From Candidatus Rokuibacteriota bacterium (lineage in GTDB: Bacteria > Methylomirabilota > Methylomirabilia > Rokubacteriales > CSP1-6), in the NCBI GenBank assembly GCA_023248995.1, contig JAHFDN010000008.1:1-64000 (forward strand): a stretch of 64,000 nucleotides of DNA, written 5' to 3'. The first letter of the stretch is position 1. Each line of letters begins with the position of its first letter. Of the stretch, positions 40,161 through 41,108 are shown piece after piece. The translations under genes were made by a program, and so were the position numbers. The notes below the pieces were generated by a model, which saw only the letters and a list, made by a program, of their open reading frames with translations, was not told where the DNA came from and did no database searches.

Positions 40161-40970
40161 ATGAGCGACTTCCTGATCCTGCTGGTGCGGTATGGGTACC
40201 TCGTCGTGTTCGGCGTCCTCCTGCTTGAGAATCTTGGCCTGCCGGTCCCGGGGCTGATCGTGCTCATCATCGCCGGGGGCCTCGTGGCCGGAGGGAAGCT
40301 CGGGCTCCCGCTGGTGATCGTCGCCGGGGTCGCGGGCGCGCTTATTGGCGATCTCGTGTGGTATGCCCTCGGCCGCTGGCGAGGCCGTCCGGTGCTGGGC
40401 TTTTTGTGTCGATTGTCGCTGAACCCCGACACGTGTGTCGGCAGCACCGAGCGGTTCTTCCTGCGCCACGGCATGCCGACTCTCCTGATCGCCAAGTTCC
40501 TTCCCGGCCTGAACACCGTGGCCCCGCCGCTGATGGGAACTCTGCGCGCCAGGTTCGGGTCGTTCTTCGCTTACGATCTCGGGGGCGCCCTGATCTTCAC
40601 GGTGGTCAGCGCCGGCATCGGCTACGGCCTCGGCCTGGAGATGGTGGACCGGGTCCAGGCGGCCGCCTCCCAGCTGGGGGCGTTCGTCGGCTGGGGCGCT
40701 GCCGGCTTCGGGTTGTCATACGTGGGCTGGCGATTCGTCCTCCGGATGCGCGTGCGAAAGGCGCTGCGCTCGGTCGGTCTCACGCCCGACGAGCTGCGTC
40801 GGCGGCAGGAAGAAGGCGCGGACCTGGTGGTCGTCGACGTGCGCTCCCCGCTCGCGGTGAAGGAGAAGCCGCGCCTGATTGCGGGCGCCCTCCGCGCCGG
40901 CCACGAGGAGATCGAGCGGCTCGCCGCCACGCTCTCTCGGCATCAGACGATCGTCGCCTATTGCGTCTGA
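40161..40970 (+). CDS. DedA family membrane protein with C-terminal rhodanese domain, ending at an in-frame UGA
   Basis: Residues 1-200 are a DedA/SNARE-associated protein (ENLGLPVPGLIVLIIAGGL, GDLVWYALGRWRGRP, AKFLPGLNTVAPPLMG) with about five helices. Members act as lipid scramblases or flippases and in membrane homeostasis. From about residue 215 a rhodanese domain begins (DLVVVDVRSPLAVKEKP) and reaches its active-site loop IVAYCV at codon 269. Codon 270 is TGA, exactly where homologues of the CxCPNE loop type carry a second Cys. The frame then resumes with PNEVSS and runs to 41108. Read through, the product would be 315 residues. Confidence 0.88.
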   Translation: MSDFLILLVRYGYLVVFGVLLLENLGLPVPGLIVLIIAGGLVAGGKLGLPLVIVAGVAGALIGDLVWYALGRWRGRPVLGFLCRLSLNPDTCVGSTERFFLRHGMPTLLIAKFLPGLNTVAPPLMGTLRARFGSFFAYDLGGALIFTVVSAGIGYGLGLEMVDRVQAAASQLGAFVGWGAAGFGLSYVGWRFVLRMRVRKALRSVGLTPDELRRRQEEGADLVVVDVRSPLAVKEKPRLIAGALRAGHEEIERLAATLSRHQTIVAYCV

Positions 40971-41108
40971 CCCAACGAGGTGTCCAGCGTCCGGGCGGCG
41001 CTGGCGCTCCGAGCAAGGGGACTGACGGACGTCTGGGTCCTCAAGGGAGGGCTCAACGCCTGGATGCGCGCCGGCTACCCGACCGAGCCCGCCCCGGAAG
41101 CCCTCTGA
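40968..41108 (+). other. Continuation of the rhodanese domain after an in-frame UGA (candidate selenocysteine codon)
   Basis: Codons after the TGA at 40968-40970 encode PNEVSSVRAALALRARGL, DVWVLKGGLNAW and MRAGYP, the normal second half of a rhodanese domain, up to a TGA at 41106-41108. No ribosome site serves it alone. It is either part of a Sec-containing fusion, the tail of a gene broken by one base change (TGC or TGT to TGA), or a sequence error. Confidence 0.6.
40984..41004 (+). promoter_or_regulatory. SECIS-like hairpin after the UGA codon
   Basis: Thirteen bases after the UGA, CCAGCG (40984-40989) pairs with CGCTGG (40999-41004). A single unpaired U at 40990 is followed by a CC/GG pair and a GGGC loop. 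A bulged U a few pairs below a loop starting GG is the hallmark of bacterial SECIS hairpins such as that of fdhF. G+C-rich coding DNA can form stems by chance. Confidence 0.4.

Follow-up and report, generated by a model that had tools for sequence, protein, structure and literature searches.

The gene located at positions 40161..41108 (+ strand) of the window, i.e. of the entire 64,000-nucleotide stretch of DNA analysed here, almost certainly encodes a membrane selenoprotein, in which the UGA at codon 270 would be decoded as selenocysteine (Sec) by SelB and tRNA-Sec. This reading is based on the conservation of the UGA, on a hairpin under RNA-level selection, and on the presence of the Sec machinery in the genome of the host, a soil bacterium from the Rokubacteria group. 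The frame contains only one TGA before its terminus (40968..40970, + strand), itself ends in TGA (41106-41108) and yields upon read-through a product of 315 aa, aligned here with 51 relatives, which comprises a DedA/VTT membrane domain and a C-terminal rhodanese domain. The former matches PF09335 (residues 29-155, 40245..40625, + strand; E 2.9e-13, 50.8 bits, above the gathering threshold of 33.9) and the latter PF00581 (residues 208-303, 40782..41069, + strand; E 2.4e-10, 41.2 bits, above the gathering threshold of 22.2), and the 45 codons that follow the TGA still match the rhodanese profile when taken alone (E 7e-4). An earlier note on this DNA had described a frame open up to YCV, which meets TGA and resumes in the same frame with the second half of a rhodanese domain, and both the frame and the Pfam domains of the read-through product bear this out.

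The active-site loop of the rhodanese domain reads YCVUPNE (C-x-U), so that UGA occupies, as had been proposed, the place of the second Cys of a CxCPNE loop; the relatives from Pseudomonadota have Cys there. The first residue of the loop, C268 (codon 40962..40964, + strand), is invariant (51/51), and we take it to be the catalytic Cys position according to established knowledge of rhodaneses. Met aside, the only other member of the Cys/Sec complement besides U270 is a pair in a loop of the DedA domain, namely C83 (40407..40409, + strand; conserved in 50/51 sequences from Methylomirabilota and in 10/12 relatives from Pseudomonadota) and C92 (40434..40436, + strand; 49/51, missing from both Sec-less relatives). 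The Ser/Thr codons 86 and 91 beside this pair (window 40416-40433) exhibit a biased synonymous choice throughout the family (TCG for Ser). The AlphaFold model of the protein (pLDDT 75.8, pTM 0.53) leaves the arrangement of the domains unfixed, and the best matches of the fold search covered the rhodanese half only.

The earlier note had also stated that no sel genes lie in the window, which is correct for the window itself; a search of the whole genome (2.34 Mb, 57 contigs, 97% complete), as it had proposed, identified selA, selB, selD and tRNA-Sec elsewhere. Three of them share one contig: selA (C51:44752-45846, - strand, E 3e-153), selB (C51:42802-44682, - strand, E 6e-114) and tRNA-Sec with the anticodon UCA (C51:47447-47540, - strand, 70.9 bits). 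The selD gene (L018, C22:271492-272433, - strand, E 5e-104) holds one internal TGA in frame, and therefore SelD of the host is probably a selenoprotein too, as is known for SelD elsewhere. In the phylum, 84 of the 95 genomes yielded a selA match, and among those with a TGA-type DedA-rhodanese gene only G087, rated 100% complete, has no selA match, probably due to an assembly gap.

Of the 95 Methylomirabilota genomes searched with read-through, about 30 contained full-length matches, and 51 distinct full-length DedA-rhodanese sequences were compared. The alignment of homologs, suggested earlier as a check, shows TGA at codon 270 in 49/51 sequences, Ser (TCA) in L077 and Glu (GAG) in L078, and Cys in 0/51 sequences from the phylum. 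All 12 relatives from Pseudomonadota, found in a plasmid collection, exhibit C-x-C (in L105, a frameshifted gene, in the shifted frame). In the tree, the Cys forms constitute one group, while L077 and L078 are separate losses nested among the Sec members. The picture of the spread beyond the phylum rests on the plasmid set, which supplied the Cys forms, and on a scan for close relatives in 84,980 species, which returned matches from Rokubacteria and one rhodanese-only match; the phage collection contained no DedA-rhodanese match. In the 38 codons after the UGA, comparison of the window gene with its two closest relatives (65-66% identity) gave dN of 0.15 and dS of 0.8-1.1, i.e. dN/dS of about 0.1-0.2, with dN lower than in the upstream part of the rhodanese domain. 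Thus, instead of the accumulation of downstream mutations that the earlier note had listed as an argument against Sec, the 3' part of the gene is under purifying selection, and this comparison excludes that it is broken or unused.

These data bear directly on the simplest alternative, in which an ordinary DedA-rhodanese gene of the Cys type has acquired its TGA by nonsense mutation or through a sequencing error. The read-through frame is indeed otherwise ordinary and single bases in a metagenome assembly can be wrong, but a sequencing error is untenable given that TGA occurs at the same codon in 49 homologs from about 30 genomes, and the low dN/dS downstream together with the lack of a Cys form among the 51 sequences from the phylum also makes a nonsense mutation extremely improbable. 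Nearly as improbable is a true stop with a separate or rarely used downstream product, or a genome-wide reassignment of UGA. A product truncated at 269 aa would keep the whole VTT domain; however, the UGA splits the rhodanese domain, which carries on in frame, reassignment is at odds with the TGA that terminates the CDS itself and with the lack of internal TGA in the selA and selB frames, and the presence of tRNA-Sec and of a SECIS-like hairpin speaks against both variants. In every member of the family the UGA sits after the complete membrane domain, which could suggest a dual output, with termination at low selenium releasing the DedA domain with half of the rhodanese domain and the site acting also as a selenium-sensing switch. 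We consider it improbable, although less so than the former two: selection for a truncated form is not in evidence, and the position of the UGA follows simply from the order of domains. Decoding of UGA270 as Sec remains by far the preferred reading.

The hairpin reported in the earlier note is present 13 nt past the UGA (40984..41004, + strand; stem 40984-40991/40997-41004, loop 40992-40996 CGGGC). The GGGC loop and bulged U described there are only another way to draw this structure: in the predicted fold the U is paired with G, and this pair is C-G in 46/49 relatives. The spacing of 13 nt between the UGA and the stem and the G in the loop agree with general descriptions of bacterial SECIS elements. 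Folding, proposed as a further check, gave a mixed result. The hairpin itself (22 nt) has a predicted energy of -13.1 kcal/mol (z -2.1), but the 59 nt around and after the UGA exhibit no signal compared to shuffled sequences; since the longer context does not surpass shuffled sequences in stability, the fold by itself proves little, and the evidence for a SECIS element was taken from conservation instead.

Synonymous constraint was assessed, with the codon usage of the family as reference, at 99 alignment columns whose amino acid is conserved. Of the six sites with the strongest constraint among the 99, five were codons 276-280 (S A R V A), and these five begin 18 nt into the UGA-proximal region. 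Mean codon entropy amounts to 0.31 of the expected value in codons 276-281 versus 0.92 elsewhere (Mann-Whitney p 4e-5). The codons used at positions 276-280 are AGC (47/48), GCC (45/46), CGG/CGT/AGG, GTG (40/40) and GCG (47/49), and the Arg codon is never CGC, although CGC is the commonest Arg codon elsewhere. The conserved core of the hairpin consists of 6 pairs (40986-40991/40997-41002), all of which are kept in 46/49 Sec members, with the consensus stem AGCGCC/GGCGCU and the loop CGGGU, CGUGU or close variants. The pair 21:33 is C-G, replaced by G-C in L045 and L059 and by U-A in the single-domain relative L090. Covariation detected by RNAalifold is weak, as the same bases are constrained by the conserved codons. 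The hairpin is intact in the Ser member L077 and has one broken pair in the Glu member L078, as expected for a recent loss of Sec in the former and an older one in the latter; the Cys relatives from Pseudomonadota mostly lack it. A covariance model built from the hairpins of the family found its best match in the host genome at the window site and only two further matches, both in CxU rhodanese genes. The synonymous constraint and the covariation at one pair thus identify the hairpin as an RNA element under RNA-level selection, and we take it to be a SECIS element. The sequence features by which bacterial selenoproteins are recognized, i.e. an in-frame UGA flanked by conserved coding sequence, the Sec machinery, a SECIS element and Cys homologs, were therefore all found, and the selenocysteine reading of TGA 40968-40970 put forward in the earlier note is supported by the machinery, the relatives, the constrained hairpin and the selection downstream.

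Two further genes in the host genome, on contigs C39 and C17, encode a trypsin-like protease, a membrane helix and a CxU rhodanese domain, with the same hairpin. The first (L080:3397-5133, - strand; about 65396-67132 of C39) combines a Trypsin_2 protease with a rhodanese loop YCTUPEE containing the in-frame TGA, and this selenoprotein architecture is apparently uncatalogued; similar TGA genes occur in L084, L089 and L091. The second candidate (L111, C17:60724-60786, + strand), with the loop YCSUTDE, was found by the SECIS model. Ser versions of the protease-rhodanese protein are encoded in other genomes (L087 and L088, loops YCTSPDE/YCTSPEE), with the hairpin degraded in both, and L087 possesses an additional C-terminal cyclic-nucleotide-binding domain. 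L090:2515-2922 (+ strand), the relative with U-A at hairpin pair 21:33, is a single-domain rhodanese that has the loop YCAUPSE and a hydrophobic N-terminal segment, and it resembles members of NF041203. Since the CxU rhodanese domain occurs also on protease-membrane helix fusions with the same hairpin in the same genome, it has the appearance of a module that Methylomirabilota have joined to several membrane proteins.

With regard to what the DedA domain might transport, it was compared with E. coli YghB, in which E39, D51, R130 and R136 have been proposed to function in flipping of undecaprenyl phosphate (UndP) (PMC10127716). In the family analysed here, the equivalent of E39 is E/D in 50/51 sequences, that of D51 is non-acidic in 48/51, that of R130 is K in 51/51 and that of R136 is S/N/T in 51/51, i.e. 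the set of acidic (E39/D51) and basic (R130/R136) residues that marks the flippases of COG0586 is incomplete. The protein is therefore best described as DedA-like, with UndP flippase activity only putative. DedA-rhodanese fusions of COG0586 are listed among the putative UndP flippases, and were called unexplained in 2023 (PMC10127716), and the acidic residue corresponding to E39 is kept; yet three of the four key residues (D51, R130, R136) are changed, one of them conservatively, so that a canonical UndP flippase merely regulated by the Sec rhodanese seems rather unlikely. Slightly less unlikely, in our opinion, is transport by the DedA part of a small anion of sulfur or selenium, from which the CxU rhodanese would take the chalcogen on the cytoplasmic side. 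Rhodanese chemistry and the loss of the phosphate-binding R136 would fit such a role, as would the published connection of DedA to selenite resistance (Ledgham 2005, as cited in PMC10127716) and the existence of another transporter-type selenoprotein, the YeeE/YedE thiosulfate transporter (PMC13188914). Against it, no genes of selenium or sulfur assimilation were seen to recur beside the DedA-rhodanese loci, and the substrate is only putative. The analysis of genomic neighborhood revealed no conservation beyond near copies, with pirin and OsmC genes recurring in 2-4 loci only; a pirin gene adjoins DedA-rhodanese genes both in Methylomirabilota and in Pseudomonadota (L027, L038, L099, L102).

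A possible connection between the two domains is indicated by their Cys and Sec residues. C83, C92, C268 and U270 are all kept in 49/49 Sec members, while the corresponding residues are C, W, C, S in L077 and S, F, C, E in L078, i.e. the Sec-less members have lost C92 in 2/2 cases and C83 in 1/2. Because both independent losses of U270 were accompanied by the loss of C92, we tentatively suggest an inter-domain selenol/thiol relay of U270/C268 with C83/C92, which we regard as a reasonable possibility, albeit short of probable. The rhodanese domain is predicted to face the cytoplasm, owing to a segment rich in arginine that follows the last membrane helix. In such a relay, C268 would carry a persulfide or become oxidized, U270 would attack it to form a selenylsulfide, the latter would then undergo exchange with the two Cys residues, C83 and C92, of the charged DedA loop, and the sulfur or redox state of the rhodanese domain could thereby gate or load the transporter. 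Two losses of Sec are, however, a small sample, and the lack of conserved gene neighbors counts against the overall interpretation. L105 and L106 weaken the apparent strict coupling of CxC to the DedA Cys pair: the pair is present in 10/12 Cys relatives from Pseudomonadota, and these two have C-x-C without it, hence the relay cannot be obligatory. The likeliest role of the protein would be to couple the passage of a lipid or a small anion across the membrane to thiol/selenol redox or sulfane-sulfur chemistry. With the same reserve as for the relay, we picture a transporter-like protein controlled or energized by a selenylsulfide relay between U270 and C83/C92, in which the CxU rhodanese would be a plug-in redox/persulfide module of several Methylomirabilota membrane proteins (the DedA transporter and a membrane-anchored trypsin-like protease). 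The joint loss of U270 and C92 provides a concrete, testable hypothesis as to how the DedA and rhodanese domains communicate.

The CxU rhodanese as such is a known selenoprotein type (PMC13188914, Table 1; the CxU form also in PMC9312934), whereas its Sec-type fusion to DedA is absent from the 2026 catalogue, the text of which mentions neither DedA, VTT, PF09335, flippase nor protease (PMC13188914); our literature search found no paper that brings together selenoprotein, rhodanese and DedA. A Methylomirabilota MAG for which 63 selenoproteins are predicted is mentioned in the catalogue (PMC13188914), and DedA-rhodanese genes may be counted among them. The family ties selenium to the DedA/VTT superfamily and represents a large group of membrane selenoproteins in Rokubacteria-type genomes, with up to several copies per genome, which a gene caller that reads UGA as a stop would truncate halfway through the active site. 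The best NCBIfam match is NF041203 (rhodanese_LYCAU, rhodanese-like selenoprotein form 3, CxU; E 2.2e-24, with 85.5 bits below the curated cut-off of 115), which likewise has Sec as the second chalcogen of the C-x-U loop, but is a single-domain model of 126 positions, while the window protein is fused to a DedA membrane domain. The TsoB rhodanese/DsbD fusion-like selenoprotein (NF045694; E 0.077 for the window protein) also combines a rhodanese with a membrane redox domain and Sec (PMC13188914), but exhibits the motif UxxxxU and a different membrane domain. E. coli YghB and the DedA flippases of COG0586 share the VTT/DedA family, but YghB possesses neither a rhodanese domain nor the Cys pair, and its D51 and R136 are not conserved in the window family. 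E. coli YgaP, found by the fold search (2mrm, 5hbo), is similar as a membrane-attached rhodanese, but presumably is neither a DedA protein nor a selenoprotein. The DedA/GlpE thiosulfate sulfurtransferase fusions of Pseudomonadota (e.g. in Xanthomonas, Burkholderia and Pseudomonas aeruginosa) share the two-domain layout at 33-41% identity and the YCxCPxE loop, usually together with the Cys pair of DedA; they differ in having Cys in place of Sec, and the SECIS hairpin is mostly missing from them.
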